Shown: piece after piece, positions 14,524 to 59,000 of the stretch | How the letters are laid out: each line of letters opens with the position of its first letter | Position numbering within the stretch: position 1 is the stretch's first letter | Origin: Amyelois transitella | Lineage: Eukaryota; Arthropoda; Insecta; Lepidoptera; Pyralidae | Direction: 5' to 3' | Length of the DNA: 64,000 bases | NCBI RefSeq assembly: GCF_032362555.1 | Contig: NC_083505.1 | Span: 1,017,001 to 1,081,000 of the forward strand | Notes under the pieces: model-generated | Databases searched by the model: none | What the model was told of the DNA's origin: nothing | Seen by the model: the letters and a program-made list of their open reading frames with translations, nothing else | Position numbers and translations under genes: made by a program

Positions 14524-15180
14524 ATGTCTTTCCGTGGAAGAGGAGGAGGCGGTGGCCGTGGTGGTTTTGGTGGAGGCCGCGGACGTGGATTTGGAGGCGG
14601 TGGCAGAGGACGAGGTGGTGGCGGAGGCGGCTTCAGACAGCAAGACACCGGTCCACCGGAGACTGTAATCCCGTTGGGCCACTACGGATGGACCGTTCAA
14701 GACGATTTAGTATGCAAAGTGGACATAGAAGACGTACCCTACTTCAACGCTCCAATATATTTAGAAAACAAGGAACAAATCGGCAAAATCGATGAAATAT
14801 TCGGCAATCTACGCGATTATTACGTGTCTGTAAAACTTGGAGAGAACATAAAGGCAAAGAGTTTTAAAGATGGTCAACAATTCTTTATTGATCCGGCAAA
14901 ATTATTGCCGCTGAAGAGGTTTCTGCCGCAGCCGCCTGGTGCGAAGCGTGGGGGCGGAGGCAGAGGTGGGCCGCGAGGAGGCCGAGGCGGAGGTTTTGGT
15001 GGACGTGGCGGCGGCGGCGGATTCGGTAGAGGTGGCGGAGGCCGCGGCGGCGGCGGTCGCGGTGGTTTCAATAGAGGCGGAGGCGGCGGGTTTAACAGAG
15101 GTGGAGGAGGCGGTTTCAACCGAGGCGGAGGCTTCAACAGAGGCGGTGGAGGCAGAGGTGGCTTCAGAGGCGGACGGTAG
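14524..15180 (+). CDS. GAR1: H/ACA ribonucleoprotein complex subunit GAR1
   Basis: GAR1 is the nucleolar H/ACA RNP subunit that binds dyskerin and helps load and release substrate RNA during pseudouridylation. This is one uninterrupted exon of 218 residues, close to the family norm. A glycine/arginine-rich N-terminal tail (residues 1-38) precedes the conserved core at about 42-135, seen in [50 protein letters not shown] and [18 protein letters not shown] long C-terminal RGG domain with repeated FNRGGGG units follows. The ATG is the first in frame. The RGG codons produce long proline-rich or alanine-rich open frames in other registers, which are artefacts. A poly(A) signal lies at 15350. Confidence 0.97.
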
Positions 15181-20700: not shown

Positions 20701-23700
20701 GCAGTTAGTAGATACTAACTGCAAGATACTACATTTTATAATATATACTTTAGATATTAAAAAATGCTGCAGTGCAGTTTGTTTCTTCTGCACTGATACT
20801 TTAAGTAAACTTAGTTTTAAGTTACTATTTGACGTCAACCAATGTTGTGAAACCGAAAGATATGACAATTATTAGTTGATGTTGAAGTGTCCCATGATAA
20901 TGAATAAAAGTTTTGAATTTGAATTTGTGATAAGTCCCTTACATACATACATATGATCACGTCTTTATCCCTTACGGGGTAGACAGAGCCAACAGTCTTG
21001 AAAAGACTGATAGGCCACATTCAGTTGTTTGGCTTAATGATAGAATAAATAAAATAATTAGTCCCTTATTAGTTTATTTATTCGTTAAATTAATTTCAGG
21101 AGACGATTGGAGGCCGTGGCCGAAGATTTGGAACCAGAGGACATTGACGAAACGCCACCCAGGTTTGTAGTACATACATAAAACTATATCTCCGTCCCCT
21201 ACAGGGTAGACAGAGGACCAAGCTCATTTATGTATATACTTTAAATTATGGGATTGAGTAGTACTGGTATAAAAATGACATTTTTATTTATGTTAATACT
21301 AACTTTTGCGCGGGACTTCACTCCCGTGGAAAAGTTCAGAAAAAGAGTAGCCTATGTTATGCCTCCCTAAATTAAGATAGTCAATAATAGATCAAAACTA
21401 CTAAATTTCATTCAAATCGGTCCAGCGGTTTAGCTGTCAAAGACGGACAGACAGACTTTTGCAGTTATAATATGTATTATTAAGGTAAGGGAGTAAAAAA
21501 TTTTGCCACGATCAATACATATACTTAATATTAATATCTTTTAATAAATGTTGTTTTCAGAAGCAGAACCGATAATCCTTTAGAAGGCCCTAGTTGGCTA
21601 CTGGATCGGCCGACGAATGCGAGGGTGAGTTTGTTTTTTATAATAATACTAGCTTTGACCTGCAGCTTCGCTTATATAGGATGTCAGTATGGATGTTTGT
21701 TACTGTCTCACGCAAAAACTGCTGAACCGATTACATGTAGGCTTTACACTTTTTATCCCAGAATTCCAGCGGGATTGATAGGGTTTCCACGCGGACGAAG
21801 TCGCGGCGGCCTCTATTATAAAATATAAATATAAATATATACGGGACAAATTACACTGATTGAGTTAGCCTCGAAGTAAGTTCGAAACTTGTGTTACGAG
21901 ATACTAACTCAACGATACTATATTTTATAATAAATACTTATATAGATAAATATCCAAGACCCAGGCCAATCAGAAAAAGTTCTTTTCTCATCATGCCCTG
22001 GCCAGGATTCGAACCCGGGACCTCCAGTGTCACAGACAAGCGTACTACCGCTGAGCCACAGAGGCCGTCAATATATATATTATATAATATATTTGAACTG
22101 TTGAGCTTAACACATTTGAACAAGTAGTAATAATGTAATGTATGTTTGATTTTCAGACGAGAGCGAGAACCGGCAAGAGTAAGAGCAACTTGGAGCCGGA
22201 CTCCACGACTCAGCTCGATGAGAACTCTGCGAACGCCGCTACAGCTCTTGCTGTAAATGATGACGAGGTATTATAAATAATTTAATCCGTTGGGTCCTTC
22301 CAATTGAGAATCAAACAGTGACACGTTGCTAGCCATTTGCCTAAAAGAATACCAAGTTTATAAGCCTATCCCTTAGTCGCCTTTTACTACATCCACGGGA
22401 AAGAGTGGTCCTATTCTTTTTTTTTTTTATTACTGCCAGAAACTACCATACGAGGGTGGTTTGAAAAGTTCTCGGCCTAACCTAGATTTGAGGGTAGAAC
22501 AAAAATAAGAATATACTCATTCAAGAGATTGATTCTTGAATGAGTATATTCACTTGTGTTAAATTTAATTGTGATAGGTTGTGTGATTATTTTTTTACGA
22601 TTTTTTGTTTGAGCTAATCTGACTCTCTACCGGAAAAATGGAAAAAACCGAAGTAAGAGCCGTGATTAAATATTTCGTCAAAAAAAATATGACACCTAGC
22701 CAAATTAAGGAAGACATGGATAACACTTTAGGTGAATCTGCGCCTTCGTATTCGACGATAAAAAGTGGGTAGCTTTATTTAAACAAGGCAGAGAAAGCGT
22801 CGAAGATGACCCTAGGAGCGGAAGGCCTTCAACGTTCACCACGCCAGAAATGAGCGATAAAATCCATAAATGGTTTTAGACGACCGCAGATTAAAAGTGC
22901 GAGAGATAAGTGACACTATAGGGATCTCAACCGAGCGGGTATTTAATATTTTAACTTGGAATGAAAAAGGTTTCGGCAAGATGGGTGCCGCGTTTGCTGA
23001 CCGCCGAACAAACACTCAACAGAGTTGAAATTTCAAGTGAGATTCTGGCCTTGTTTAGGTCAAATACCGCCGATATTTTGAAAAGATTTGTTACCACCGA
23101 TGAAACTTGGATACATCATTATATTCCTGAAACAAAAGAACAATCAAAACAGTGGAAACATAGAGGTTCTCCGCCTCCAAAGAAGGCCAAGGCGATAAAG
23201 TCTGCAGGAAAAGTTCTGGCATCCGTGTTTTCGGATTACAAGGGAATAATTTTTATTAACTACCTTCCGAAAGGACAAATTATTACAGGCCCATACTATG
23301 CTAACCTGCTGGATAAATTAGCAGAAAAAATCCGTGAAAAACGCCCGGGATTGGCGAAAAAAAAATCCTTTTTCATCAGGATAATGCACCAGTGCACAAG
23401 TCAGTTGTTGCAATAGCTAAACTCCATGAACTGCGTTTTGTAGTATTGAACCATCACCATTATTCACCGGATTTAGCACCATCGGACTATTATCTGTTCC
23501 CTAATTTGAAAAAACACCTGGCTGGAAAGAAATTTTCCACAAATGAAGAAGTCATAGCTGAGGCGGAACGTTTTTTCGACGAGTTGGAAGAATCGGCCTA
23601 TAAGAGTGGCATAGAAGAAGAGGGGATTATGTAGAAAAATAAAAAATATTTTTTTGTTTAATTACCTTTGTTTTCTTAGACGGGCCGAGAATTTTTCAAA

Positions 23701-34700: not shown

Positions 34701-37700
34701 TTCCTATAGGGGCATCTGGTTCACTATCTGAATCAAATTGGAGATATTCTTCACTTACACTTTCTTCCTTGGTCTTGGCTTACTTATTTCCTAAACTTCT
34801 TTTGCTTGGGTTACTTATCTTTTGTTTTATTTTCTTTTTCAATTTTCTTCCTACTTGTTGCAATAAGGCCATTTTTATATGGAGACAAAGTTATGACCGA
34901 AGCCACAGCAGCCCATATTTAGGACCATAGTAATAGCCCATATTCGAAATTCTTAACTAAAATAAATTTGATCTTGTACTTTACAAATCATATATAGCAA
35001 GCAATAAATCGACCGAAAATCATAAAATTAAACTTATATTTTGCAATAAAACACATGGTTAGAGTATTTAGACCTAATTTTCTTTGATTAAACAACACAT
35101 TGATACGAACCTCAGAAAACTTTTCGACAGCAACAACACAAGAACAGCTGACAATGGCGACAGCTCGCGCGCGATTGACGAGAGCGAGTGAGTGCGATGT
35201 CAAAGCGAATGAATGCGATGGACGATCGTCATTTGTTGTGTCATTCGACTGTAGGTTTTCGAGAATTGTTACTAGCCCATATTAAAGCACTAGCCCACAT
35301 TTAGTTACTTTCCTCTATAACAACCAATATACTAACCACTATACACTATAGGATTCACCCGGTTGTCTAATTATATATAGTACGCGAAATTTCAAGAAGA
35401 TTGGTTCTGTAGATAACGCGTGAAGAGCTAACAAACAAACAAACTCACTTTCGCATTTATAATATCAGTATCGATAACTATAACGTCGACCGAGACTTAC
35501 ATTTTGACTTTTTCTTGTTCATATTCTCATTGTCAACGGTGTCCTCCGTCCAGACTACCTTCTTCCTCTCCTGCGCACGCGTCGGTCGCAGTGTAATCAC
35601 TGCGATTGGCTGCACTGGTTCCTGAGAAATGATAAATGAAATTTAACTATTTCTTCGACGTGAACTTAAAACCTTGCAAACACTTTGTATTTTTAACAGT
35701 ACGTTGAATATCTCAAAAACTACTTAACCGATTGCGATGCCCGACGAACTTAATAATGACAGATCCTACATATATTTTAAATTTCATCAAAATCGGACTA
35801 GCGGTACGAAAGTTAACGCGTTATAGACATACATACAAAAATGTATTTTCGCCCCACGTTGGTTAATTTTCCTTTTCATATTCTTTATAAAGATTAAGAG
35901 TTGAATCAAATTAATAGTGGCTTGTGTATTTACAACCATATTAATTCCACTTATATTAATAAACTTGCATTGCGCATAGCCATCCTTCGATATAGATATG
36001 CCATTGTGGAAATTCCCATAGAAACAAAGTATTAGTTGGAAAGTTTAAAGTCAAATAAATAAGTAATACATATTTGTATACAACTTACCGCCTTTCCATT
36101 TTATTGGCATAATAAACATGTCTTATCAATACTGCTGCATATAGATAAAAGTATGATATATGTACCACAATGTAGGTACTCTTAATTTCGATCATACATC
36201 TATTGTACTTATTTTATTAAAGTATTTACGTTTGGTGTGAGCTGTGTATAATATTAAATCATTTTAATATGTAATCATTACAAGAGTGGTTCTTCCGTTT
36301 CGTCCTAATCGCCATTCCAGGTCAAAAGTCGTTATGAATATTGTAATTAACCGTATTTTTTTTATTGGATAAGGTAGGACGTACTTTTATCTTAAATGTC
36401 CATCATATATATCAGGTTTAAACCTCATAACAAAAAAAATTTTAGAACAAAAACATGTATTTTTTTCATTCCTCTCCTTGTTCAAATGGACCCTCAGAAC
36501 GTTGTGACACACTTTTGTTGACTTTCCTAGGAGAGAAGTACATTTTTTTTTTCTTATATACTAATGTATTCACTGACTATTATAAACCTGCAATACAGTA
36601 TTTTTTATAAGTGTTTAATATAGAAAGAATTGTCTTCAAAGTTTTGTCAACCCAAAAACTACATTGCCTTCCACAAAAATATAACATTAAAATTTTTATG
36701 CACGTACAATACTATCTATTTCTTGCCAAACAAAAGACGCTCCCGCGCACCTCCGTCCGTCGATACAAGTCCTCAGGAGAGGACGGACGCTGCCCAGACA
36801 AAATATTTTTACGATTTAATTTCTGAAAACAGCGTTTGTCACGAGTAAGTAAACATTACCTTCCGTAGTTTTTGTATGTGAGTGTAGACGTAAAAAAATA
36901 ATTTCAACTTTTGGTAATTAGCATACTGTAGGGTCTAGTTATCAATTAATTATGAATATCTAGCCTTTATTAATTCATGAGTAAATTCAGGAAATCTGCT
37001 CAAACTTCATTTCTTTCCGTATAATTCCCTTCCGTTCCCTCCAATTTTTTAAAGGAGGGTAATGAATCACTTTGGATTGTAATGATTTTTTTTTAATATA
37101 AAATTAATATGTACCTACCTATGTCTCTTTGTTATTTTTTTCCTATTATTTTGATTATATCGAATTATAACTTGTGTAAGTATATGTCAGTATTATTGAA
37201 CTAACTTAAAATTAAATCTGTACATTTTGTAACCTACCTAAGTACTTAGGTAGGCTTCGAAAGAAGACAGACAGCTGTCTGTTCGCAATAAACTGAAAAA
37301 CTACTGAATGAACGGAATAGGTAGGTACCTAATTAATAAAGAAGGTTTCGTGAAATATTCGATTATTTTGCTTAGTTTTGTTTTTTAGATACATCTGCAA
37401 TAATGTCGAAGCCGAAGAAACTGGCAATTAAAGAAAAAAAAATAGGTAAAGACAGATTGCGAAAGAAGGTAAAATACGCAGAAATCAAGGCGGATCCTGA
37501 AAAATACAAATTAGAGAAGGAGAAACAAAAGAGGAAATTCCTTGTAAAAAAAGAAAAGAAACAAGTCCTAAGTATAACAGAGATGACGGCACGACAAAAG
37601 AGGGAGCGAAGGCGAAGATGGCGAAAAAACTCCAAAAAATATTTAAATAAGGTGAAAGAGCAGAAAATATTGCAAATAATTATAATAGACAACTCTCCGC

Positions 37701-40700
37701 CCAGTAATAAAACTGAGGAATTTATAAACATCCAGAACCTACAATACACGACCCTCTTATGTTACAAGAAGAATCCACATCAAGCCAAAGTACATCGAAG
37801 TCACATTTAGTGCATCAAAAAACTAGTATTTCAAGCGCAATGAGAAAGTTGCGATACATATCTAAAAAAGCAATAACAATCTTACAGAATGAATTTGATA
37901 AACTAAAAAAATGAGAAAGCGCTTTTAAGAAGACATTTATTTATGGAGCAGATGTTACAAAAAGATAAGATTCAAGAAAATAAAGTAGATGAAATCATAA
38001 AAAACATAAATAATGAGAAGGTACAAGAAGTGATAAAGAAGCTTTTGTTGAATGAAACAGTTTGTCGAGGAGTATCAGAAAAACACAAAAGCCTTCCGAA
38101 AAAAGAGGAAAGAGGAGCTTTTGCTGGATATAATTGATAATTCGAAGCTCAAAAAGTATGGGATATTGTCAAATATTACTTTTGCTATGAGAAATTAACT
38201 GAAAAAAAAATTCGAGATAATAAAACTGCGAAACTAAAACAAAGTGTTGAAAATTTTCTACAAGAAGATGAAAACAGTCAAATGGCGCCAGGAAAAAACG
38301 AATTTATTAAAAAAGGTGCATTAAAAAAACAAAAAAGATATTTAACCGATAATATGAAAAATTTACATGCGAAGTTTTGTAAGAAATGGGGCCATATACA
38401 TTACTCAGTATTCTGCAAATATAGACCATTCTGGATAATTCAACCTTCATCAAAAAGAGACACGTGCCAATGCAAGCTGCACTCTAACATTGAACTTATT
38501 ATTAAATTTTTAAAGAAAGCTAATATAATCACAGAAAATTCTTTATCTGAGGTTTTGAACAATTTATGTTGTAGTGTGTACCTACGAAAGAAATTGTTTA
38601 GAGAGAAAGTGCAAAATCTGCAAAAATAAAGTCACGACGTACCAGGAATTTGACAATCGGAAAACTATTATTTATCATGAATGGATTTTTGAGAAGCAAG
38701 ACTACGTAGGAAAAGATGAAAAAAAACAAGAGAGTTACATTAAAAAAGAAAAAGGAAGATTTACCACCTAATGTCATTATGAAGTTCGAAACTCTACTGG
38801 CAGTTTTCTTCAAGCGGGTTTTAAATATAACAATGCAATATTCCGCTATTAAGAATCTGCAACGTGATTTATCTCCTAGTGAAGTCATATGCCATATAGA
38901 CTTCAGCAAAAATTATTTATTAAAATATAAAGAAGAAATACAAAGTTTTCATTTCGGTGGAAGCCGCCAACAAATCTCTTTGCATACAGGAGTATTATAT
39001 TTTTATGATCAGGAAACCAAAGTAGTAATTCATAAATCTTTTTGTACAATAAGCGAAAATATAATGCACGATGCTTCTGCTATATGGGCACACTTACAAC
39101 CAGTTTTGAACATGGCCCAAGAGTTAGTCCCAATTATATCGGTAAAATTTTAAATAGAATGCAAAGTTTTCTAGAGTATAAAATATTTTTTTAAGGAGAG
39201 ATCAGGGCTAGTCTAAGAAATTTGGCTGGCTGCTAATTAGCGATGATGAATCAAACAAAATGATGAATGAATGATGAATTAGCGATGATGAATACCCGCA
39301 TCACGAATTTTGCAACGTTTGAATGAGCCGGAAGAATTTAGAAGAGGGCAATTTGTGTTTAAAAATTTACTAAATATTAATTTTAAATAAGTAGAAATGA
39401 CTGATTGTAACTTTGATTAGGCTGATTACTAATTTAATTCTTGAGAGTTCCTACTTATTGTTTATAATGTTAACTAATCCGTTACATTTTATTAACATTT
39501 TTAATGTATGGGAATGAAAGTTGGGTATGGCAAAAGTAGCACGAAAGCAGAATAAATGCAGTGGAAATGAGAGCGTTAAGGAGTATGATAGGTGGAAATT
39601 GAGTGAACGGAAAAGGAACAGCGTGATAAAGCAATGTTGTGATGTGAAAGAAGATGTAGTTACAGGAATAGAAAAGGGTATGTTAAGATGATTTGGTCAT
39701 GAGGAGAGAGAGAGATCATTCTGATTATTCATTACTTTCCATACGAAATCATTACACTCCCGTCATATTTAATTTTATTTCATTACCTTCCAAATTCAAG
39801 CATTACCTTCCGTACTTATTTCATTACCTTCCGTGGGTTCATTACATTCCAGCTATTTTCTTGACAATGAAAGCTTTTTCATGAAGGCCTTTACTGATAA
39901 TCTATACTTGAAAGGTACCCGAATGATTATATGTAACTGTTTTAAAAAATCGATTAAAAAAAAAACTTTCTTCAAAATCGTTGAGATTTGAACGAAACGG
40001 AAGAATCACTCACAAGTATAGTCCAGCATATCAACCTACACAAATTAAATAGACTTCACGCACGGTAACTTGATATGCGGGGGACTGTACTAATGAATTT
40101 TAAGACAAAAAAGTTTGAAATAAAACAAAAATATTGACAGACACTTTATTAACAATCATCTTACAACCTTCTTATTGTACAAATCATTGATCATTTCATC
40201 ATCATATCCCAAATATTCTGACAATATATCCCTCGTGTGTTGCCCCAGTGTAGGGGGCGGTGTCCTAGCCAAATTTCCACCTTCGCTGTACTCCGTCGGT
40301 GGTCTCACCAGCTTAATCTTCCCTGCCTCCGGATGAACCAATTCCTGTACTAAACCTATTGATTGCACATGCTCATCCTCAAAAACATCTTTCATCTTAT
40401 TAACAGGTCCGTTTGGGAACGATGCATTCTTGAATATTTGTGCCCATTCCTTATTGGTCTTCGTTTTGATAACCTCGCTGACAATTCTCACAATCACCTC
40501 CCGATTCTCAACCCGAAGCGAGTTATCTTTAAACCTTTCATCATGTATCAACTCTTCTTTGCCAATTAACGTGCAGAAATCAACAAACTGTGCATTCGAG
40601 CCTGTACCAATGACCATGTCTCCGTCTTTCGTTTTGAACGCTTGGTACGGGACGAGGTTAGCATGGGCAGTTCCCCACTTCTGCCCTTCGATGCCACAAT

Positions 40701-42884
40701 TCAGGTAAATGCAAGCAATGTTGATCATGCTTGAGATCTGAGTGGAGAGCAAGTTGCAGTCGACTCTCTGGCCTTTTCCTGTGTTTTTTCTGTAGTACAG
40801 AGCGGTCATTATGGCCCCGAAAGCGTGGAGTCCTGTTGTGACGTCCGTTATGGCAACACCAGGCTTCACAGGGTTGCCATTTCTCTCGCCTGTCGTGTTT
40901 AATAGTCCGCCCATTGCGGATGCTATTACGTCGTAACTATAAAAAAAATATCATTGCTTTGTAAAGAGATTATAATCTGTAACCTTCAAAATAGAAATTT
41001 CAGTTTGTTTATGTATGTATGTTTCGTTTTAAGGCTAAACAGATGAACTTATTGAAATGTATTTTATGGTATAAGTTAATCTTCTTAAATTTAAGAGCTA
41101 TCTCTTGTCGGTGGAGTTAAGTGGAGTGTTCTCCATTCATGTCTTTTCTCATAGTTAGTGGTTAAAAATAAAATTATAGAAATTTTTTAAAAGTATTATT
41201 TACTTGTGTATTACCCAGGCTTATTAGCATATGGTCCTTTTTGTCCAAACCCAGTTATAGAACAATAGATCAACTGTGGATTCATTGTTTTGAGCTTATC
41301 GTAGCCCACATCCATTTTGTCCAGCTTTCCCGGCAGGAAATTCTCCACCAAAACATCAGATTTACGAGCTAAGTCGTATATGACATTTTTACCTAAAAAA
41401 GTAAACTTAAAAATTATTCATATCTCTTTCTTTTTAAGAAAATTTTCCAACTTTATCTATATTACTTTTTTTAGTGAATAATTGTGTTAATGGCGAGTGT
41501 AAAATCAAGATGTACTTTCAAACGCATCAGGTTTTTGCACATTTATTCATATGATCACATCTACATCCTTTGTAGAGTAGAAAGAGCCAGCAGTCTTGAA
41601 AGACTGATAGTCCATGTTCAGCTGATAGGCTTCATTGTCAATCAATGAAGCCTATCAGCTGAACATTCTATCTCTCAATGAATCATTGAGAATCAAATAG
41701 TGACAGGTAGCTAGCCTTTATCTAAGTCATCTTTTATGACATCCATGGGAAAGAGATGGAATGGCCCTATTCTTTTTTTTATATTTGTGCCAGTTACCAC
41801 ACGGCCCTTCTTTTTTGGCAGAAATTTAAGCTTTTTAAAGGTTTAAAGAGTGTGATGGTAAGATGTTTCAAAATCATTTTATCAAACTGTTAGGCAAAGG
41901 TCTTGATTATTTCTCTTAAATATGTATCAACAATGTTATCAGCCTCCTATGATGCACTGATAAGATATGATAAATAAAAATCATATTACAGATAAATTTA
42001 AGTAGCGCCATCAAAAATATTTTCCATATCATTTATATATCTACTATATCTTTCATATCATTTACCTGGTTATATATCATCAGCAGTTTACTGAATCATA
42101 CTAAGACAGCATTTAACTGTTACTTTTTATTTGTGAAATTATTTGGCAAGGTTGATTTGGACAACATTTTATAGGTATCCTATATATACCTAATCAGTAA
42201 TCAGTACCTAATTCAGGGAAATCAGTAAATTTAAAAAATATACAAAAAAATTCTCAACAATATCTAGTTTTTACCCAAATTTAAGGCCAAGCGTGTAAGT
42301 CTCCCCCGCCATTAGATATGATGAACTGGCAGTTCTAGGAGTGGGCATAAAGATATGTTTAAAATTTGGGAAACTTACCTTCCTTGGTCTTGAAATCAAT
42401 GCAAATACTCTTCTTATTCCTGTTCACTGACAGAAAGTAATACGAATCCTTGTTGCCATTTATAAAGGGAGGCCCCCATTTCCTTGCCTCATCTCCGTCC
42501 AGACTCTCCACCTTGATCACATTAGCACCCAGGTCTCCCAGGGTCATAGTACAAACGGGCCCGGCTACGACACGGGTCAAATCCAGAACATTTATATCGC
42601 TCAATAAACCCGGCGGTTTCGTAGAATATTCAAATTTCAAAATACATTTTTGCTTTGTTACTACACCAGAAAATAACGCTCTGACGGCAGACATCGCGAA
42701 CAACAAATGGAATAAACGATTGTTTGTTTAACTTATCAATGCCTTAGCATGTTAAATAAAAGAGATAAGGTGCTTGTAATGGGAATGTATTATTTACCTC
42801 TTGCAATTGAGCAGGGACGGTGGAAACCGCCGTGCTGGTTGTAGCCATCTCTTCCGGTCTCCGGATTCTTTGACTATCACCCAT
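31710..42884 (-). CDS. PPP1R11: Protein phosphatase 1 inhibitor-3 (PPP1R11), four exons
   Basis: A small, heat-stable, disordered PP1 inhibitor; vertebrate PPP1R11 has also been described as an E3 ligase. Exons 42884-42798, 35621-35501, 33680-33538 and 31823-31710 give 154 residues with matched phases. Exon 1 supplies a Thr/Ser-rich N-terminus ([17 protein letters not shown] after [12 protein letters not shown]). Exon 2 has the PP1-docking block [20 protein letters not shown] (KVxW motif). Exon 3 opens with [17 protein letters not shown], the hallmark of the family, then an acidic and His/Cys stretch. Exon 4 is a Thr- and Pro-rich tail. Exons 2-4 are certain. Exon 1 lies 7.2 kb away and is assigned by phase, Thr-rich character and a clean donor. 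Its intron contains SUGCT on the same strand. Confidence 0.92.
31853..31960 (-). repeat. Family A repeat, truncated, 30 bp from the PPP1R11 exon 4 acceptor
   Basis: From ACATACATATAGTCACG to TTTTTGGCTTGATGAAAGAA. Confidence 0.8.
32118..32348 (-). repeat. Family A repeat, nearly full length
   Basis: It is preceded by a TATATATA run, starts AAGTCACGTTTATATACC and ends GGGAACGAGATGGAGTGGTC without the hairpin end. Confidence 0.85.
32411..32595 (+). repeat. Family A fragment lacking both ends
   Basis: ACAATAGGACCACTCCATAT to TCGCCTTTCAGTCTTTTTAA, with no simple tail. Confidence 0.7.
33010..33222 (-). repeat. Family A repeat, 5'-truncated
   Basis: Tail-side start ATACGTACATATAATCACGT; ends at TTTTACGACATCCATGG. 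Confidence 0.85.
33243..33509 (+). repeat. Family A repeat, full length and well preserved
   Basis: It starts GTGCCGTGTGGTTCCCGGCA and ends with a (GTAT)n run 30 bp from the PPP1R11 exon 3 donor. It is among the cleanest copies and useful for a consensus. Confidence 0.9.
33830..34172. mobile_element. Short palindromic element carrying a Cys-rich tail ORF
   Basis: Inverted arms of about 63 bp (33830-33892 and 34110-34172) differ at only a few positions. Between them a plus-strand ORF (33867-34109) encodes [36 protein letters not shown] and LPCNNK. This CxCKxGC...C.CKK pattern resembles the Cys-rich C-terminal domain I associate with Ginger/KRBA2-type transposases and with CXC domains. I read it as a deletion derivative keeping only the tail of a transposase gene. 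It lies in PPP1R11 intron 2, just upstream of exon 3. The family assignment is from memory. Confidence 0.65.
34212..35315 (-). mobile_element. Pogo-like DNA transposon, internally deleted
   Basis: Inverted ends GAGGAAAGTAACCAAATATG and the partner ending TTAGTTACTTTCCTC are flanked by TA (34210-34211, 35316-35317), as for the Tc1/mariner/pogo superfamily. ATATGGGCTA motifs repeat near both ends. A minus-strand ORF tail (about 34782-34534) reads [48 protein letters not shown] and DTWICDFCK then stop. This is the C-terminal zinc finger typical of insect pogo transposases. The DDE core is missing, so the copy is not autonomous. Confidence 0.8.
35340..35475 (+). repeat. Interspersed repeat end, Helitron-like
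   Basis: AATTTCAAGAAGATTGGTTC and TTTCGCATTTATAATATCAG match the 20.0-20.15 kb repeat. It ends about 25 bases from PPP1R11 exon 2. Confidence 0.5.
36540..37402 (+). other. Possible 5' region of the decayed transposon at 37.4 kb
   Basis: A CATTACCTTCCGTA motif at 36854 is shared with the repeats at 39.73-39.85 kb. An open segment near 36745-36845 ([20 protein letters not shown]) ends at a donor-like GTAAGT, and an acceptor-like TTTTTTAG precedes the ATG at 37403, so a spliced leader exon is possible. Confidence 0.35.
37403..39153 (+). pseudogene. Decayed transposase-like gene of unknown DNA transposon family
   Basis: Four or five plus-strand open pieces follow one another and appear to be one broken protein. 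First comes a very basic N-terminus ([40 protein letters not shown]), then a Cys-containing middle ([34 protein letters not shown]). The C-terminal part has acidic motifs in an RNase-H-like pattern ([52 protein letters not shown]). I do not recognise the family. The motif spacing suggests a DDE-type cut-and-paste transposase, as an inference. It is AT-rich, several times frameshifted, and lies in PPP1R11 intron 1 downstream of SUGCT. Confidence 0.6.
39495..39715 (+). mobile_element. LINE reverse-transcriptase C-terminal remnant
   Basis: The translation resembles the end of lepidopteran LINE ORF2: [27 protein letters not shown] and [18 protein letters not shown] followed by FGHEE. It contains in-frame stops and at least one frameshift. 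Confidence 0.6.
39730..39855 (+). repeat. Array of six CATTACCTTCCGT-like repeats at ~20-bp spacing
   Basis: Units start at 39730, 39750, 39781, 39801, 39822 and 39840. The best read CATTACCTTCCGTAC and CATTACCTTCCGTGG. The same word stands alone at 36854, on the other side of the transposase-like remnant. This looks like a subterminal transposase-binding array. Confidence 0.75.
40145..40150 (-). terminator. SUGCT poly(A) signal AATAAA
   Basis: Minus-strand AATAAA begins only five bases after the SUGCT stop codon, followed by T-rich sequence. It implies a 3'UTR of a few tens of bases. Confidence 0.6.
40156..42697 (-). CDS. SUGCT: Succinyl-CoA:glutarate CoA-transferase (SUGCT), three exons
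   Basis: A mitochondrial class III (CaiB/BaiF) CoA-transferase that re-activates glutarate to glutaryl-CoA with succinyl-CoA as donor. Exons 42697-42379, 41392-41215 and 40936-40156 give 425 residues, close to vertebrate [25 protein letters not shown] is a basic, hydrophobic presequence. Family blocks follow: [73 protein letters not shown] and [18 protein letters not shown], the last carrying the likely catalytic Asp. Next come [16 protein letters not shown], and near the C-terminus [22 protein letters not shown] 42697 is used; a frame-compatible TTG three codons upstream is not a credible eukaryotic start. The gene lies entirely inside intron 1 of PPP1R11, its ATG 100 bp past that gene's exon 1. 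Confidence 0.95.
41542..41817 (-). repeat. Family A repeat with an internal inverted duplication
   Basis: It starts ATTCATATGATCACATCTAC and ends TGTGCCAGTTACCACACGGC. Around 41620-41665 the segment GATAGGCTTCATTG is followed by its inverted copy CAATGAAGCCTATC, forming a hairpin. It lies in SUGCT intron 1. Confidence 0.8.
42698..42797 (-). promoter_or_regulatory. Candidate SUGCT promoter within PPP1R11 intron 1
   Basis: Only these 100 bases separate the PPP1R11 exon 1 donor from the SUGCT ATG. The SUGCT promoter must overlap this stretch or PPP1R11 exon 1 itself, or the two genes share a start region and differ by splicing. No TATA box is evident. Confidence 0.4.
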
Positions 42885-45885: not shown

Positions 45886-46248
45886 TGGGTGGTCGATAGT
45901 TAAGGTGCCCGGTTAAAAAGCGGGATGCGCAGGTTCGAATCCCATCTCGGCCATGGGCCAATGACTTCTTGTATATATAAGTTTACATACATACATACAT
46001 ATAATCACGTCTATATCCCTTGCGGGGTAGACAGAGCCAACAGTCTTGAAAAGACTGATAGGCCACGTTCAGCTGTTTGGCTTTATGATGGAATTGAGAT
46101 TCAAATAGTGACAGGTTGCTAGCCCATCGCCTAAAAGAAGAATCCCATGTTTATAAGCCTATCCCTTAGTCGCCTTTTACGACATCCATGGGAACGAGAT
46201 GGAGTGGTCCTATTCTTTTTTTTTATTGGTGCCGGGAACCACACGGCA
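45886..46248 (-). repeat. tRNA-like segment joined to a full family A copy
   Basis: 45886-45960 reads GTGGTCGATAGTTAAGGTGC (A-box-like), then GCGCAGGTTCGAATCCCATC (B box), then CTCGGCCATGGGCCAATGAC. A CATA run leads into family A (45977-46248), which ends GGTGCCGGGAACCACACGGC. No acceptor stem closes around it, so I treat it as SINE-derived and not as a tRNA gene. Confidence 0.8.
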
Positions 46249-46261
46249 CGGTATATAAGTT

Positions 46262-46445
46262 TAAATGAAGAAAATGCTGCTACTTCTGCACTGACGCTTT
46301 CGAAGCGGCAGTAAACTTAGTTTTAACTAATTTATTTGCCGTCAACCAATGCTGTGAAATTATACAGCTGATCTTGGCATTTCAGTCTTCGCGAGATATT
46401 TTGGCTTTGTTTACCCCGTGACAGATGAAGTCATGCTTATATGTA
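46262..46445 (+). repeat. TTCTGCACTGA repeat followed by a family A tail fragment
   Basis: CTACTTCTGCACTGACGC and GCCGTCAACCAATGCTGTGA match 20.77-20.86 kb. Then TTTCAGTCTTCGCGAGA to GTCATGCTTATATGTA is a worn family A end. Confidence 0.55.
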
Positions 46446-46807
46446 AGTACCTACATATGATACTATCGGTAAGATTTAATTAATTATAAAAACAACTTAA
46501 TTTATCTCACAACTAACCTAAATTACATACAAATAGTTCGCGCGCTCGGAATCAAGTTCATTAAAAAAAAAAAACAAAAAAAAACAACCGTTAATTTGTC
46601 GACGCCACAGAGCAAATAAAGTCACCGTGGGTGGTTCTGCGTTCTGTGACTGGCACACATCAAGCGTGGGATAGCTGTTTGTCGTTCTACTGAATACAAA
46701 GAAGCGGACATCAAATATGTCTAAATAATCATCATCAAGTGAATAGATCGAGGAAAATGTGGAAGAAGAACAGGAGATAATTGGTATTATATTGGTATGT
46801 GTAGACA

Positions 46808-47022
46808 CATATGTATATAGTCACGTCTATATCCCTTGCGGAGAAGACATAGCCAACAGTATTGAAATGGACTGAAATACCTCGTTCAGCTGTAGGTATC
46901 GCTGTATGATGGAATTGAGATTCAAATAGTGACAGGTTGCTAGCCAATCTCCTGCAAGAATATTATTAACATTTCCCTTAGTCACTTAGAATACTAAAGT
47001 GCTGTAAACCACATGGCACGGA
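46808..47022 (-). repeat. Family A repeat, highly diverged
   Basis: Starts ATGTATATAGTCACGTC and ends AAACCACATGGCAC. Many changes and a missing ACATCCATGGGAAAG segment suggest an old copy. Confidence 0.7.
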
Positions 47023-47204
47023 TTATTGGTAGGTTTCTAGAAAATTCATTAAAAATGAAGAACATCCTAGATAGGGGTTTTCAAAACAGTTACCTAATTA
47101 AATTATTTAAAATTATACCCCAATTAATTTAAATGCTTATTTTATATATCCATTTTCATAATCAAAAGAAATACAAAATTTTTAAAACTTTGATCGTTAT
47201 GCGT

Positions 47205-47330
47205 CCTGTCACTATTTGAATCTCAATACGAGTACCATCAAATCTATACAGCTGTACCCACGTGGCCCGTTTGCCTTTTCAAGACTGTTGGCTGTGTCTA
47301 CCCCACAAGGGATATAACCGTGCCTATGTA
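47205..47330 (+). repeat. Family A fragment
   Basis: CCTGTCACTATTTGAATCTC to CCACAAGGGATATAACCG. Confidence 0.7.
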
Positions 47331-47706
47331 CATAAGTAAATATTGATAAAAATTTCGCAGCATATAAGTAGTTTTAGACAATGTTTTGATCAACGATTTT
47401 GTATAAGCGACGGTATTTAAAATTAGACCTGATGTGATTGCGTTTGGCATACCGACTCCTTAATCGGTTTGTGTTTATCACAAACAAGCTAAAAATAAAT
47501 CGTTTCACAAAACAAGCTTTAAATAAAACTTTCGATGAATGAAGCGTAGCAATCTGAATTCAGATATATCATCCCCTTCATATTCCATTACATAAATTAT
47601 ACTTAAGAGCCATATATGTCATTATAATGAGGTAATTCAGTACTTACCTTTACTTATCAGGATATTTACATCTATTTAAAATTAACATAAATATCTTAGA
47701 TTTTAA

Positions 47707-48050
47707 CATATACATGTACATACATAATTTTAATGACGTCTTCATCCCTTACGGGGTAAACAGAGCCAACAGTCTTGAAAAGACTGAAAGGCCACGTTCA
47801 GCTGTATGGTTTAATGATGAAATTGAGATTTAAATCCTCATCCTTCTGGCTTTAGTCTTCGTTGCATCCTCACCACTCTGCAGAGGAGCCCGGCAACCCC
47901 TGGTCTTTGAATCCTGGATTGGGTGAGTCAGGTTTTTACACGAAGCCACTCCCATCTGACCTCCGCAACCTTTGCCTAACCTAACCCGTATTCGATCGAT
48001 CATAGTTTCACATCCAGTTGCCTGAATGTGCAGGTTTCCTCATGATGTTT
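47707..48050. repeat. Family A fragment abutting a GGTTGCATCCTCACC copy
   Basis: 47707-47836 is a minus-oriented family A piece truncated after GAAATTGAGATTTAAAT. 47842-48050 is a plus-oriented GGTTGCATCCTCACC copy ending CAGGTTTCCTCATGATG. Confidence 0.75.
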
Positions 48051-48452
48051 TACCTCACCGTGAGAACATCGGTTAGATGTCAAAACCAATCAAGTGTAGG
48101 GAATCAATTTATATTGCAATTAATTAAGTAATTTTCTTTTTATGTCTGGAAATGCATTGCCATTTCGGTGTCTGGGGAGCCGTCTGGTAACAGCTTTTGA
48201 CCACGAAAATGATCCAAAAGAGAGTTAATAAGGTCATGGAGCCAGTCTGGTCTAATTTCTGTAACTTTGCTTACGGAGAATCTGGCCCGATTTGATCGAT
48301 TACTTAGGTTTAACCATAGAAAAACATTGGTTATAACGAAAAGCGTTCACCTCTTACAATAACCCTGTAGTTTCATATCTAAAACATTTTAGTAACGTTA
48401 AGATTTACGCAACCGCATCTCACTCCAGAGAAGTGCGGACGCGCCGCGAGTA

Positions 48453-48490
48453 GGTATAAACAATACGCCCGTGACGTCACAGTCGATGTT
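48453..48490 (+). promoter_or_regulatory. Candidate TATA promoter with a CRE-like palindrome
   Basis: TATAAA lies at 48455-48460 and the CREB/ATF palindrome TGACGTCA at 48472-48479. The surrounding 48.41-48.57 kb is unusually GC-rich for the region, and the next plus-strand exon is the first sarcolamban-type one. A second TGACGTCA is at 49705-49712. Promoter function is inference. Confidence 0.35.
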
Positions 48491-48621
48491 CCAGCCGCGC
48501 AGATACCCCGCTTTCCAGCTCCGGGAACACAGGGCCGCATTCAAGGTTGTCCAGAATGTATTGGACATTTCCAGACGATTCTTTTCCATTTTCAAATGTG
48601 CTTTCCCTCTTTTGTTTTTTA

Positions 48622-48850
48622 ACATACATATAGTCACGTATAAATCCCTTGCGTAGACAGAGCCAACAGTCTAGAAAAACTGAAAGGCTGCTTTCAGCTT
48701 ACGGCTTAATGAAAGAATTGAGACTCAAATAGTGACAGGTTGCTAGCCCATCGTCTAAATGAAGAATCCCAAGTTTATAAGCCTATCCCTCAGTCGCCTT
48801 TTAAGACATCCATGGGAAAGAGATGGACTGATCCTATTTTTTTTTGTTTT
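48622..48850 (-). repeat. Family A repeat, nearly full length
   Basis: Starts AACATACATATAGTCACG and ends GGAAAGAGATGGACTGATCC. The hairpin end is lost in a T-rich run. Confidence 0.8.
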
Positions 48851-49206
48851 TTAACCTTGAATTTAAAAAAAGAAAATGTGTTATCGGTTACATTATTTTC
48901 GACGAAATAGAAACCGAGAATATAAAAATAACTTAAAATGCCCAAGGTCGGCAGCCGAGCCCACTAATACGCAACTCTTTTGGCAAGAAGGGGGGCTAAG
49001 AAAACAAAAAAAAATGTAAATAATTACAATGGATCCCTCGTCGAGCACACCGTCCCGACTGGTAATTAATCACCGGCGCTGTTCCAACGAAAAATAGAAT
49101 TTTAACGTCACGTCAGCTAAATTTTAAGAAATAATTGTACAATATCAAGCTTTGTTTCACACATTTTCCTCAGTTGCTTTAAAACGGGCAGAGAGACAGC
49201 TACACT

Positions 49207-49299
49207 ATGACTTCGGAAGGAGCAAACCTTGTCACAACTTACGGCATTCTCTTGCTGCTTCTGGTAGCCTTATGGTTACTCTACTCAACTGCATTCTAA
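49207..49299 (+). CDS. Sarcolamban-like micropeptide A (30 aa)
   Basis: A predicted single-helix micropeptide of the sarcolamban/sarcolipin/phospholamban class, which sits in the sarcoplasmic reticulum membrane and inhibits the SERCA calcium pump. Residues 1-10 are MTSEGANLVT and residues 11-30 TYGILLLLLVALWLLYSTAF. This aligns end to end with Drosophila sarcolambans (28-29 aa, pattern LFTTFxILxxLLFxLYxxY), and shares NL..TY.IL.LLL...LWLLYS with its two neighbours. The exon starts after the acceptor ATTTTCCTCAG (from 49174), and a donor-like GTAAGT begins at 49303, three bases past the stop codon. Too short for routine ORF calling. Function is inferred from similarity. Confidence 0.85.
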   Translation: MTSEGANLVTTYGILLLLLVALWLLYSTAF

Positions 49300-50002
49300 A
49301 CAGTAAGTACTTACTGAAAATTAAAAAAAATATACTTCCTACTTGTTTTTTTTTTAAATAAAATCTGATATAATATTTCAAGGCTCAGAATTTCCAGTGG
49401 TTTGAAAATAAATTGTTTGCGGTGTGCGATATATTTAAACGAGCTTATGAGTGATTGTTGTGGGTGTGAATAAAATAATGTGACTTCAGCTCTCTAGAAA
49501 TATTTGTTTTTGAATTCGCTAGGAAGTTTAAATATTAATTAACCTATATGTAAATAAAATATGATTTAAATAACTTGTCTCAAATAGATTTAAAATTTAA
49601 ATTGTTATAAGGCGGCTATAGATGTGTTGGTATTAATTTGGGATGGTTAAATAATGATTCAGATGCAGCGTGTTTTGTAAAAAAGATTTGAAAATAAAGA
49701 CCTGTGACGTCACATACTGCAATTTACTCATATGTATATTGGACAACCACCGTATTTTAACATACATAAATTGCATAAATCACTTTCTTTCCCGGAGGCA
49801 GACTAAATCATTCCACTAGCCACGATCCCTGCATATAGTTCTTTCCAAAGAAGCAATATGTACCCAGCATCAAAATGTTCAGTTAAAAATTCCAGGATTT
49901 CCAAATCCTAAGCCTTAATATGTCCCTGTATATTGACGTGCGTGCGCTTCAAAGCAACCACTTTGGAAGTGAGTTGACCAGTGCTGCTAGTACCGTGATA
50001 CC

Positions 50003-50101
50003 ATGCCGATCAACGCCGAGACGGTGAACCTGGCCGCCACGTACATGATTCTTGTGATCCTGTTGTTCTTCCTCTGGCTGTTCTACTCGGCCATCTTTTA
50101 G
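50003..50101 (+). CDS. Sarcolamban-like micropeptide B (32 aa)
   Basis: Second member of the cluster: MPINAETVNLAATYMI, then LVILLFFLWLFYSAIF. The polar N-terminal third and the aromatic-ended helix (LLFFLW) are closest to Drosophila sarcolamban A among the three. The start context ATACCATG is acceptable. The stop TAG is followed after five bases by a donor GTAAGTTTT (50107). Codons are GC-rich compared with the flanks, which supports real coding constraint. The upstream exon boundary is not clear; it may be a first exon with its own transcription start. It lies 0.7 kb downstream of peptide A. Confidence 0.85.
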   Translation: MPINAETVNLAATYMILVILLFFLWLFYSAIF

Positions 50102-50835
50102 CAATTGTAAGTTTTATTTCTTTGGAATAAGAAACAAACTGCGTCGTGTGAAACGCCTAGTAAATTCGGTTAAATGCTCTTAAAATTCGACGTAGTAAAT
50201 TTGAAACAGGTGTTCCGCGAACCGCGATCTCTTTTCAGTCTAACTATACGTACTCTAAGTTTAAAATTTCTTTAATAAAAAAAAAGATTAAAAAAAGATA
50301 GATTGCAGATGGCCAGTGCGCGAAATGGTTATGAAAAGGAAAAAGTTTCATAAAACGATTTTTTTAACGATTGCGTTAAAAACTACCTTTTATATTCTAA
50401 TGTGAATTTAAAGGTAGATTTTAGCGGTGAATATGGACTTGTCTTGTGGACATGATAAGATGCTGCTTATCAATTAATTTGTGAATAACATACCTATTTT
50501 CGTTCACTTTATTGTAAAAATATCTTTAAAAACGATGTTACCGGAAATAAAAACAAAAACAATTTTAAAAATATTTGTGTACTTTACGTATTGTCCATTT
50601 ATTTCAACTGTTGCTGCCTCGACATTAATACCTAAGCAAAAACAAAATACTTATCAAATAGCAAAACTCAACAAGAAAATTCTACTCAATTCCGTACTAC
50701 ACCAATCATCGCAATCTAAAAATATTTGAATTTGGAAGGCGTGGACGCGTAGGCGCGGCGACAAACCAGCGTCCCCAGTTCCCTGGAGTCGTTTGTCCAG
50801 TGAAGTCCTCGAAGCAGTCAGGTGCCAAAGTCGCC

Positions 50836-50931
50836 ATGCCCAACCACGAGACCACCAACCTGATAGCCACCTACCTGATCCTGCTGCTACTGCTGGGGTC
50901 TCTGTGGCTGCTGTACTCCGGGCTGTACTGA
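50836..50931 (+). CDS. Sarcolamban-like micropeptide C (31 aa)
   Basis: Third member: MPNHETTNLIATYLI, then LLLLLGSLWLLYSGLY. The start lies in a strong Kozak context (AAGTCGCCATGC). The exon is GC-rich and uses mainly CTG for leucine, unlike its AT-rich neighbourhood. The stop codon is followed by a GTGAGT donor at 50948. A SERCA-binding-type Asn in NL and the LWLLYS tail are shared with A and B. It replaces the FF of peptide B by GS in the helix, so partner affinity may differ. No acceptor is convincing upstream, and the GC-rich 50.74-50.83 kb segment may be a promoter and leader. Confidence 0.85.
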   Translation: MPNHETTNLIATYLILLLLLGSLWLLYSGLY

Positions 50932-51721
50932 GGTGCCTTGTCTTTTTGTGAGTTGTGTCCGTGTTTCGTGTAAAGTGCTGTATTAAATTAGGATTTCAGA
51001 TTTTAAGGACCAACCGCACTGGAATCAAGTTAAAGGTCCTTTCATCTGTGAAGCATAAGAATATACTTACTCGTAATTTTTGCAGATTTTTTTATAGAAA
51101 GTTTGTGGTCAATAGGTTTCTTTCTTGCGTCATCTTCGAAATTCATCCGTCTATATATTTATAAATTACATATCGGTCCCCTTGGGGATCGAAAGGGAAG
51201 CATCTTAATATTTTTTTGACTGGTTAAAGGACTTTAAACTTTGAGTTTTTTTCACAAAAGCACGTGATCTAGATCCTTACCTCTTCAAAGTCTCAGATTT
51301 TTATTAACATCAAACATTTGCTTCATTAAAGAGAGTGAAATTATTACCTAACATGGGCGTGTCATGAATGATGCTGTGTGTTTTACAAAAACACACATAC
51401 ATTTAGTCACGTCCATGCAAAAGTTGAGAAGTCTAGAAAAGATTAAAGATGATCATTAGAACGAGCCCCTAATCCCGACCTATGACAACGCACGACAAGC
51501 AATTAGACAATAGCCCGACCGTGCCAACACGCCTATCACGGTTCCACGCTCTGTAAACTGACAATTTGTCTTAATGTTGTTAAATTGGAAACTACAGGGT
51601 TACTTGTAGAACATCAAGAACCTTGTATTGCTAAAAAGCCAACAGCATTTAGCAATATTTAGATATTTTTATCCAAAAATGTATCCAAAACGGGATAAGT
51701 TTACTGATGGATGGGAGTCGC

Positions 51722-54975: not shown

Positions 54976-55310
54976 ACGAGAGCAAGTAAACGTCACCATG
55001 TGAGACCAAAGTGCGAAGCAGAGCTGAAATGCAACTTAAATTAAGAAACCGTAATTTTAGTATTAAGTTAATAAGTTAAGCCATTTTATACCCGAGCATT
55101 TAAGTTATCGTAATGGAGGTCCCTGGTCTGAGACAGGAGCTATGGTGCTGGGCATTCCAATTTAAACTCTAAAATTTAGAGGAAAGACAGATAAAACACC
55201 GATTATGTGAATAGAGCCTAGCAATTAATATTTGCTGAAAGGCGTAACACCAGAACTAAAGATTTTATCATTGTTAAGAATAATTTAAGTGTTTTAATAA
55301 AGATTTTTCT
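54976..55310 (+). other. Probable shared 3'UTR exon of the sarcolamban-like cluster
   Basis: A clean acceptor (TTTTTGTTTGTTACAG) precedes 335 bases with no significant ORF, ending just after the poly(A) signal AATAAA at 55296-55301. All three micropeptide exons end in donor-like sites directly after their stops, so each needs a downstream untranslated exon, and this is the only good candidate before the opposite-strand channel gene. Joining is inferred. Confidence 0.5.
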
Positions 55311-56039
55311 ATTAAGTTTCTTATTTATTTGGAATCCACCATTTTCCTTTATAATTTGGAATTTTATTTTAATTAAATTATCAAAGCTTTAATTTATTTT
55401 TGGAAATCTTATTATTGTATTACATATTTAATTTCTGATAGGTAATTGTGAACTAAAATAAAACCAAAAATCTAGTTTAGTTCCTTCTTGAAACACCATC
55501 TAGACGTTCTCTAACACCAAAAAAAGATTTGTCAATGCGTCTCTAGCTGTTCGTGGAGAAGTGCATCGAAAAATGTTAAAGGAATCATCTCCTTATATCC
55601 AAGTACAAATAAAAGAACACTGACCGACTGATTGCCTGACATTATCTTTGTTTTCGAGTTTAGGTTTTTACGTGCACTAAGATATATTTTCCCGCGAGAA
55701 CGTTCCCGTGAGCCAACTCTAGTTTTAAATAAGTTACGAACCCAGAGAAAAGTATGGTGATTGTAAAACTATTCTTAATTTGGGGGGAGTTTTTACAATG
55801 AAGAAAGTAATTATAATAGGTTTTTTTTAAATGAAGACCTATTTGTTTTATATAATATGATAATATATTTATTTAAAATTTAATGGTTATTAACGACCAA
55901 GGGTTGGACATGACATACTACCAAATAAACACATAGGTTTGACATTATATTTTATTTTCTTCAAAGACGAATTATAACAAGAACACTAAACACAATATGA
56001 ATAAAGACTAAAAATTAAGACTTTTCTACGTTATCTTAA
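55311..56039. other. Short tail-to-tail intergenic gap
   Basis: AT-rich sequence between the sarcolamban 3' exon (+) and the channel gene (-). A minus-strand AATAAA-like signal for the channel probably lies in 55.86-55.99 kb. Nothing else was seen. Confidence 0.5.
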
Positions 56040-59000
56040 TCACTTTTTCTCTGAATCTTTCTTTTTATCTACGTTTTTATTTTTATTTTCAGATGAAGTT
56101 GATGGTTGTTCATGATCTTGGGCATCTTCAGGTTGCAAGGGTACACCTTGAAGTAAAGACTTTTCGTCTTTATAACGAACATGAACAGACCGCCTATTCA
56201 AACGAATAGCTGCATTATCTTTGTGGTCACTATCATCAATACCATCATAATCTTCCACATCAAAATCAACCAATGTTTGGAGTAATTTCTTCTCATCTTT
56301 ACTGGCTCCAGAGTGGTCTGCTTGGTCTGAAGTGGTAGATATTTCTGGTTCCGGGTTTAATATTGCTGCAGACTGGGAAAGTTTTAGTTCTGATGGGACA
56401 TGTTCAGTATGTCGCGATTTTAATACGTTGATGAGTGTGGTGGAGGTTACTTGCGCTTCTGAATCTAAAAGATTTTTATCAATAGAAAACGATGATAAAG
56501 CATCTTCGTTATCATTATATTTAGTTTCATCCTTAACTGTTGTTTCTCTATCCGATGGAGATTCTTTATTCAAACCTTCTTCTTTGTTTTTATTATCCTG
56601 AAAGAGACTATCTCTAAAGGACTCTTCTCTACTAAGCTTCATAGCTTCTAAATCTTCACTTTCTGGCCCACTTTCTGACATTCCACTGGTTCCTGAAGGC
56701 GATGTATCGTCAGAACTGTCAGCATTTTTTATAGTTGCCAAACTTTCTCCAGTTCTAGGTAGCTCCTGCATTGCTTCACCATCAAGTCTGTCGGTGAGTG
56801 AAATATTAGTCAATTCAAACTCAGATTGTGAATCAGACGTTTTCTTTAATGTTCTCGGAAGCTCTGTCTCTTGTCTGTTAAGTTCTGAAGGTTCAGGTGC
56901 AGCGTCTTCAGACAAAGCACCTGGTGGGCTACTTGGAGGGAAACCTGGTGGTCCACCTGCTCCTGGAGGGACAGGCGCAAAGTCAGCGTGCGCCCAGGGG
57001 ATAGATGTTTTTCTGACTTGATGAAATGTTGGTCTTTCGTAAGGTTGACCAGAATCGTCATCGAAATCTAAATGGTCGTAAATAGAATCAGCGCTATTAG
57101 GAAAGTGTGTTAGCAGGAAATTCCAGTCTTCATATGCAAGCGTCAGAATTTGGCTCTTCAGTACCGATTGATAAGAGCACTTGAATGGCGTGTTGGGATA
57201 TAAGCCTTCCACCTGAAAGCAATATATGAAATCAGAAGATCAAAATGATTCATACTCGTATCATTTCGTTTTATGTTGAGAAATCAAGAATAACTTTTTA
57301 GAGTATTTTATAAGTTCTATTGTGTTAGGTATTGTTATTGTACCGTGTGGTTCCCGGCACCAACATAAAAAAGAAAAGGATCACTCCATCTCATTCCCCG
57401 TGGATGTCGTAAGAGGCGACTAAGGGATGGGCTTATAAACTTGGGATTCTTGTTTTAGGCGATGGGCTAGCAATCTGTCGCTATTTGAATCTCAATTCTA
57501 TCATAAAGCCAAACAGCTGAACGTGGCCTACCAGTCTCTTCAAGACTTTTGGCTCTGTCTACCCCGCAAGGGATATAGACGTGACTATATGAATGAATAA
57601 ATATGAATTGTCTTAGGCTAGACACCAAAATCATCTCTTGAATGAAAATTATTAATTAACCATCTCATTAATGAAAAAATATTTATTTACCAGTCCGAAA
57701 CTGCCACCAGCAATGATGCTCCTGATTGTGGTGGATCTCGACGAGGTCTCCCTGACCTTGCCGGTGTGGACAATGTATATGGTGTCGGTGATCTCGCCTT
57801 CCTTCACGATGAACATATCTGAGGAGGAAATACAAATGTTATTATCACCTATACCTCTTCCTCTTCTTCTCCGAGTAGCGGTGATACAACCAAGTCTAAC
57901 TCCAGGACAGGAGGATAATGTTGGCTAATCTTATACATAAAATTCTCGTGTCACAATGTTTGTCTCTGTACTCCTCAGAAACGGCTTCACCGATTTTAAC
58001 CACATTTTGCATGCATATTCAGTAGGTCTGAGAATCGGCTAACATCTATTTTTCATACCCCTAAGTGTTAAGGGTTGTCCACCCTTAACATTTTTTTAAC
58101 TAGACATTACTTATAAAATTATTAATATGGCAAAACAACTTTTGCCGGGACAGCTAGTTATAAATAAAAATTGCACTACCGAAATGCATTTTCGACAATA
58201 ATTTTGATACTATGTTGATAGGTAGGTATGTGTCGAAATAAGTGTATCAGCACATATAAGAAAAGAACATATTCCCAAATATTTTTAAAAGAGTTATAGT
58301 AGGTACCGTGTGTTATGTGTATGATGTGCCGTGTGGTTCTCGGCACAAATAAAAAAAGGACCACTCCATTTCTTTACCATGGATGTCGTAAAAAGCGACT
58401 AAGGGATAGGCTTATGAACTAGGGATTCTTCTTTTAGGCGATGGGCTAGCAACATGTCATTATTTGAATCTCATTTCTATCATTGAGCCAAACAGCTGAA
58501 CGTGGCCTACCAGTCTAAGACTGTTGGCACTGTCTACCCCGCAAGGGATATAGACGTGACTATATGTATGTATGTAGCTATTATAGTAGGTACAAAAATT
58601 AACTATGCTTACTGCGATTGTAATAATACATTTTCAATTTCCCAACCAGCTGTCGCAGGAATGCGCGCTCGCAGGCTTCAAACACGATGTGCTTTAACAA
58701 TAAATAATGTATACTTTTTTTTTTTTGAGACGCTAATTTGTTTGTTTGGCAATAAATTGTTTATTAGATGGGTATACTGGGTACAACTGTTTGATAAGTG
58801 TAGCGTTGATGGGTCTCTGCTATTTGATAATAATGTATAGTTATTCGTCTCCCGGTACCAATAAAAAAAGTAGAATAGGACCACACCATCTCGTTCCCAT
58901 GGATGTCGTAAAAGGCGACTAAGTTATAGGCTTATAAACTTGGGATTCTTCTTTTAGGCAATGTGCTAGCAACCTGTCACTATTTGAATCTCAATTCTAT

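Follow-up and report, generated by a model that had tools for sequence, protein, structure and literature searches.

A probable sarcolamban-family locus with three tandem micropeptide paralogs in Amyelois transitella

Sarcolambans are single helices of the muscle sarco/endoplasmic reticulum that bind SERCA and slow it. The Drosophila peptides have been described as localised to the ER/SR, where they bind SERCA and lower its activity, and their loss has been described as leading to arrhythmia (excerpts of PMC9338278 and PMC7686979). Neprilysins cleave the fly peptides at the luminal end, beside hydrophobic residues (excerpt of PMC9338278). The vertebrate regulins phospholamban, sarcolipin, myoregulin and DWORF are likewise treated as single-helix SERCA micropeptides in passages of PMC8396278 and PMC9338278. 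Several micropeptides per insect locus have also been described for pri/tarsal-less and sloth1/2 (excerpt of PMC11475943). Their peptides and targets are unrelated to those considered here, and they are poly- or bicistronic, whereas the layout of the present locus is inferred from sequence.

The locus of A. transitella resembles fly sarcolamban A and B (scl, pncr003:2L) in peptide length (28 and 29 aa in the fly according to the excerpted PMC7686979, 30–32 aa here), in having one hydrophobic helix and in holding several related peptides. By the fly letters used here, an acidic residue ahead of an N/S-L-x-x-T-Y/F core is also common to both. On the other hand, there are two copies in the fly and three here, and where the fly peptides read LY the present ones read LW (Trp for Tyr), and they have Ser past the following Tyr. 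Moreover, the ORFs of the present locus lie 0.7–0.8 kb apart and have splice donors just past two of the stops. That several sarcolamban peptides are encoded per locus is already known. Three copies in this layout were not found among the matches listed for one open-access literature library, and, going by title or opening of the abstract, none of the 28 papers matching "sarcolamban" in that library concerns Lepidoptera, nor is such a paper among the further matches listed. A survey of silkworm smORFs (PMC9841908) gave no match for "sarcolamban" and its main text does not contain "SERCA". The letters used for the fly peptides had 0 matches in open-access papers.

We analysed a stretch of 64 kb, called the window below. 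The three reading frames under study are:

49207..49299, plus strand: p1 (ORF 1), sarcolamban-type micropeptide, 30 codons from ATG to stop
50003..50101, plus strand: p2 (ORF 2), sarcolamban-type micropeptide, 32 codons from ATG to stop
50836..50931, plus strand: p3 (ORF 3), paralog of p1 and p2, 31 codons from ATG to stop

It is very likely that they constitute a locus of the sarcolamban family whose three members are old tandem paralogs. The original prediction, made from the letters alone, had proposed three micro-ORFs of 30, 32 and 31 codons, each with a polar N-terminus and a single hydrophobic stretch, and all of this is found, on one strand and within 1.73 kb. The best 19-residue Kyte–Doolittle means are 2.29 for p1, 2.49 for p2 and 2.28 for p3. 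The peptides have about 30 aa, a polar N-terminus and one transmembrane-type helix, the helix being predicted on p1 alone: AlphaFold2, run with p1 only, models residues 3–29 as a single helix (mean pLDDT 95.9). All three start codons have a purine at −3. Across the alignment of the three peptides 15 columns are invariant; they include an acidic residue, NLxxTY, IL, LL, LWL and YS. The predicted motif NL..TY.IL.LLL...LWLLYS needs a minor correction, the strictly common form being NLxxTYxILxxLLxxLWLxYS; p2 reads LWLFYS. The description of the ORFs as GC-rich fits p2 (52.5%) and p3 (58.3%) and is weak for p1 (44.1%), the window having 36% GC. At third positions GC amounts to 48%, 91% and 88% in p1, p2 and p3, respectively.

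Assignment to the family rests on the Pfam profile PF21898 (Sarcolamban), whose curated cut-off is 27 bits. p1 scores 27.9 bits (E 1.9e-6; residues 3–29 aligned with profile positions 2–28 of 28) and p2 28.8 bits (E 1e-6; positions 3–27 of 28). Because these scores lie just over the cut-off, by 0.9 and 1.8 bits, p1 and p2 are classed as sarcolambans narrowly. p3 scores 16.8 bits (E 0.0057), about 10 bits under the cut-off, and is filed as a paralog; with this qualification the predicted sarcolamban-type family is supported. For comparison, the letters used here for SclA and SclB of the fly reach 68.8 and 65.4 bits on the same profile. Among the ORFs of the window, the three best matches to SclA are p1 (23.5 bits), p2 (21.2 bits) and p3 (14.5 bits), and those to SclB are p2 (18.1 bits), p1 (14.7 bits) and p3 (12.8 bits). 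Pfam includes the regulin families, and in contrast to the regulins the present peptides are listed with Sarcolamban only: PF21898 is the sole family at E up to 10 for p1–p3, in a listing from which HMMER filters discard most matches above about 0.1, and any other Pfam family was rejected on this basis. Residue-shuffled peptides (three per peptide) match PF21898 in 0 of 9 cases, one of them matching PsbH at E 0.35. At their C-termini these fly letters tally with the luminal fragments YLIYAVL and YAFYEAAF given in the excerpted PMC9338278. Compared with the PDB, p1 has one weak match, to a photosystem I subunit (E 0.13). In viral contigs, 27 pattern matches to the peptides yielded 0 confirmed relatives.

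The three copies are related to each other more clearly than to any other ORF of the window. When all 462 ATG ORFs of 20–60 aa in the window are compared, p1, p2 and p3 retrieve one another with E values from 8e-7 to 2e-9; past these hits, no match to any of them is better than E 0.16. The proposed three-member family is seen as three tandem copies that are mutually nearest within this set. A held-out copy scores 34.9–42.4 bits on the profile of the two remaining copies (p2 41.2, p3 42.4). Scored against p1, a set of 100 first-order Markov windows reached at most 9.8 bits (median 6.3), as compared to 26.5 and 23.4 bits for its real neighbours. With p1 as query, the whole assembly (327,366,114 bases, 33 contigs) yielded 3 candidates: p3 at E 0.00995, p2 at E 0.105 and the query's own locus; the best candidates alone were scored, and distant further copies are possible. 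A fourth copy within the window was rejected, since the profile of all three peptides, run over the six frames, gives nothing else better than E 0.24.

Constraint on the peptide frame, as predicted, is visible between the paralogs of this one genome. By the Nei–Gojobori method, pS is 0.87 for p1–p2, 0.97 for p1–p3 and 0.65 for p2–p3, which is near saturation, versus pN of 0.30, 0.27 and 0.25. Identical residues number 16 of 30 (p1–p2), 18 of 30 (p1–p3) and 19 of 31 (p2–p3), while neutral change with equal base differences would leave means of 8.9, 8.2 and 11.6; the excess has P = 0.0002, 0 and 0.0002 in 5000 trials each. None of the six flank comparisons (400 nt upstream and downstream, three pairs) exceeds the random 95% level, and promoter or leader DNA common to the copies was rejected on these grounds. 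Since synonymous sites and flanks have diverged and pN has stayed low, the comparison indicates an old tandem duplication in which the peptide has been retained by selection.

Hydrophobic frames are not rare in this DNA: a 19-residue mean of at least 1.6 is found in 38 of the 462 window ORFs, and one other ORF exceeds p2. One could suppose on this ground that p1–p3 are chance hydrophobic ORFs or dead copies. The Markov windows, the leave-one-out profiles and the shuffled peptides all speak to the contrary, and so does the contrast between synonymous and amino-acid-changing differences in 3 of 3 pairs. Chance hydrophobic ORFs were rejected on the Markov windows, the shuffles and the pS/pN contrast, and we hold this explanation, dead copies included, to be extremely improbable. 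Membership of the locus in the sarcolamban family together with a coding function is, in our judgement, highly likely. It is also conceivable that the peptides, or at least p3, are derived from sarcolambans and now act in the membrane on another target. p3 falls under the Pfam cut-off and is the least similar of the three to the fly peptides. Yet it has 19 of 31 residues in common with p2 and 18 of 30 with p1, and the pN of the pairs containing p3 (0.25 and 0.27) is no higher than that of p1–p2. On sequence p3 is a clear paralog of p1 and p2, and another target is improbable. By analogy with the fly, SERCA regulation is likely to be the job of the peptides. Their tails, LLYSTAF, LFYSAIF and LLYSGLY, carry hydrophobic residues, and cutting by neprilysin is our guess from the same analogy.

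Regarding the transcript, splice sites were scored with two generic matrices, hand-written and untrained on this species; the second is a judgement-based revision of the first which penalises acceptors that have another AG shortly upstream. The elements considered are:

49174..49206, plus strand: p1 leader without ATG, opening at the candidate acceptor cctcag/T
49303..49308, plus strand: candidate donor GTAAGT, 3 nt past the p1 stop, in the top 1.6% of 3434 GTs
50107..50112, plus strand: candidate donor GTAAGT, 5 nt past the p2 stop, in the top 2.7% of GTs
50535..50835, plus strand: probable p3 leader or promoter region, 301 nt without ATG, its last part GC-rich
50933..50953, plus strand: GTGCCT at 50933 (top 4.1%) and GTGAGT at 50948 (top 6.2%), two weaker candidate donors downstream of p3
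54976..55315 (end estimated), plus strand: candidate common 3' untranslated exon, with acceptor at 54976 and AATAAA at 55296

Among 243 ORFs on the plus strand, 6 carry an equally good donor no more than 6 nt past the stop, and p1 and p2 are two of these. The coordinate 50947, at which the original prediction ended its feature, is the base before GTGAGT. The revised matrix, applied to 3567 AGs, places the p1 acceptor at 49174 in the top 2.4%, and the first matrix places it in the top 2.8%; the bases at this site also fit the insect initiator TCAGTT (49170). For p2 and p3 the outcome varies with the matrix. The candidate at 49802, upstream of p2, is in the top 2.5% by the first matrix and outside the top 3% by the revised one, which places 49896 in the top 6.5%. 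Upstream of p3, the candidate at 50801 goes from the top 6% to the top 25.3%. Gaps from the start codon to the nearest upstream ATG are 178 nt (p1), 83 nt (p2) and 301 nt (p3), and 4.6%, 22% and 0.8% of the window ATGs, respectively, have gaps that large. The 200 nt from 50740 contain 60.5% GC (99.5th percentile). The acceptor at 54976 is number 2 of the 3567 plus-strand AGs by the revised matrix and is followed by stops in three frames. The candidate 3' exon stops short of an opposite-strand gene with its last reading frame ending at 56040.

These sites suggest an arrangement in which each ORF would lie on its own exon behind a short ATG-free leader, p1 and p2 with a donor right past the stop, and all peptide exons would be joined to the same 3' untranslated exon near 54976–55315. 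One peptide per exon had been predicted. The donors after the p1 and p2 stops and the strong acceptor at 54976 agree with it; the part of it that concerns p2 and p3 is less secure, their acceptors being matrix-dependent and the p3 donor weak. Separate peptide exons with a common 3' end near 54976–55315 are plausible and we propose them tentatively, with somewhat less trust in the common 3' end since the two matrices disagree on the acceptors. For p2 and p3, alternative first exons are a possibility; they could also be internal exons, the first-matrix candidates 49802 and 50801 for this having been lost on revision. The weak donor of p3 speaks against a uniform exon design.

Two other layouts have to be weighed against separate exons with a common 3' end. 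All three peptides could be made together from one tricistronic RNA, the donors past p1 and p2 serving to remove the intervening stretches. The ORFs lie on one strand within 1.73 kb, the excerpted PMC11475943 describes fly sarcolamban and pri as poly- or bicistronic with redundant peptides, and the first matrix does offer acceptors before p2 (49802) and before p3 (50801). By the revised matrix, however, the AGs between p2 and its last upstream ATG reach at best the top 32.6% and those ahead of p3 at best the top 25.3%. A p2 exon beginning at 49896 or 49802 would include upstream ATGs, the last of them at 49920, and an unspliced RNA would hold many (on average one per 55 nt). We regard a tricistronic RNA as possible, though doubtful. 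Less credit is given to three independent small genes, every one with a promoter and a poly(A) site to itself, which we consider unlikely. AATAAA does occur past p1 (at 49357 and four more times before 49700) and past p2 (50274), and the start regions of p2 and p3 are GC-rich (91.8th and 99.5th percentile, respectively, when 200-nt stretches are ranked). But AATAAA is frequent in this AT-rich DNA (259 in the window, counting both strands), and the plus strand has none between p3 and 52022. Moreover, the donors right past the p1 and p2 stops suggest onward splicing.

With three copies available, muscles or stages could differ in which peptide, or how much of it, they use, which is our guess. 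A bolder version would see in the locus three alternative first exons that all splice to one common 3' end. Each would amount to a whole micropeptide gene under a promoter of its own, so that tissues would choose their pump regulator through promoter use, and p3, as the most diverged copy, would have a different job, either in another tissue or in relieving inhibition instead of causing it; taken as a whole, we think that this version is rather unlikely. Should the model of a common 3' end be true, the locus would offer a compact example of promoters selecting the micropeptide. Micropeptides so short are easily overlooked in annotation. The two sarcolamban peptides of the fly are described as redundant (excerpt of PMC11475943). 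With three old and separately retained copies, one could ask directly why insects hold on to several SERCA peptides; distinct expression or distinct action of the copies should be visible.

Muscle regulatory motifs between 47.5 and 55.5 kb occur at about the expected frequency or below it. MEF2 is not enriched, with 10 matches (5 places, both strands) versus 12 expected, and none between 47.7 and 52.4 kb. Observed and expected numbers are 56 and 53 for CANNTG, 2 and 5 for CAGCTG, and 2 and 2 for TYAAGTG.

The surroundings of the locus contain several other features. The downstream gene on the minus strand comprises 56043–57239 and 57655–57924. The latter piece matches the cyclic nucleotide-binding domain PF00027 with 22.7 bits, under the cut-off of 27.5, and is the one piece of six that matched. 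Further minus-strand pieces up to 63.6 kb look, by eye, like a cyclic-nucleotide-gated-channel type. Of two ORFs of this gene compared with the PDB, one had a best match at E 0.2 and the other had none. A short repeat with diverged copies in both orientations, up to 94% alike, occupies 46000–48850 and 57340–57608; it resembles a lepidopteran interspersed repeat. Its words, one exact word per search, had 0 matches in viral contigs and prokaryote genomes and 0 in open-access papers. On the other side of the locus, a gene of CoA-transferase family III (PF02515) has two exons on the minus strand, at 40159–40950 and 42362–42727, preceded by a series of lysine-rich ORFs on the plus strand (37376–39153), of which the one ORF checked, 38141–38626, has no Pfam match. 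A transposase fragment (PF01359, Transposase_1), presumably of mariner type, is found at 22955–23413 on the plus strand, and a tRNA-His (GTG) at 21994–22065 on the minus strand is recognised by both ARAGORN and Rfam (34 bits). A gene with a Gar1/Naf1 domain (PF04410) and many glycine–arginine repeats is located at 14521–15177 on the plus strand. Finally, a short tandem repeat at 10711–11335 on the minus strand is open in two overlapping frames, with RTSALL and YECALT as their repeated units.
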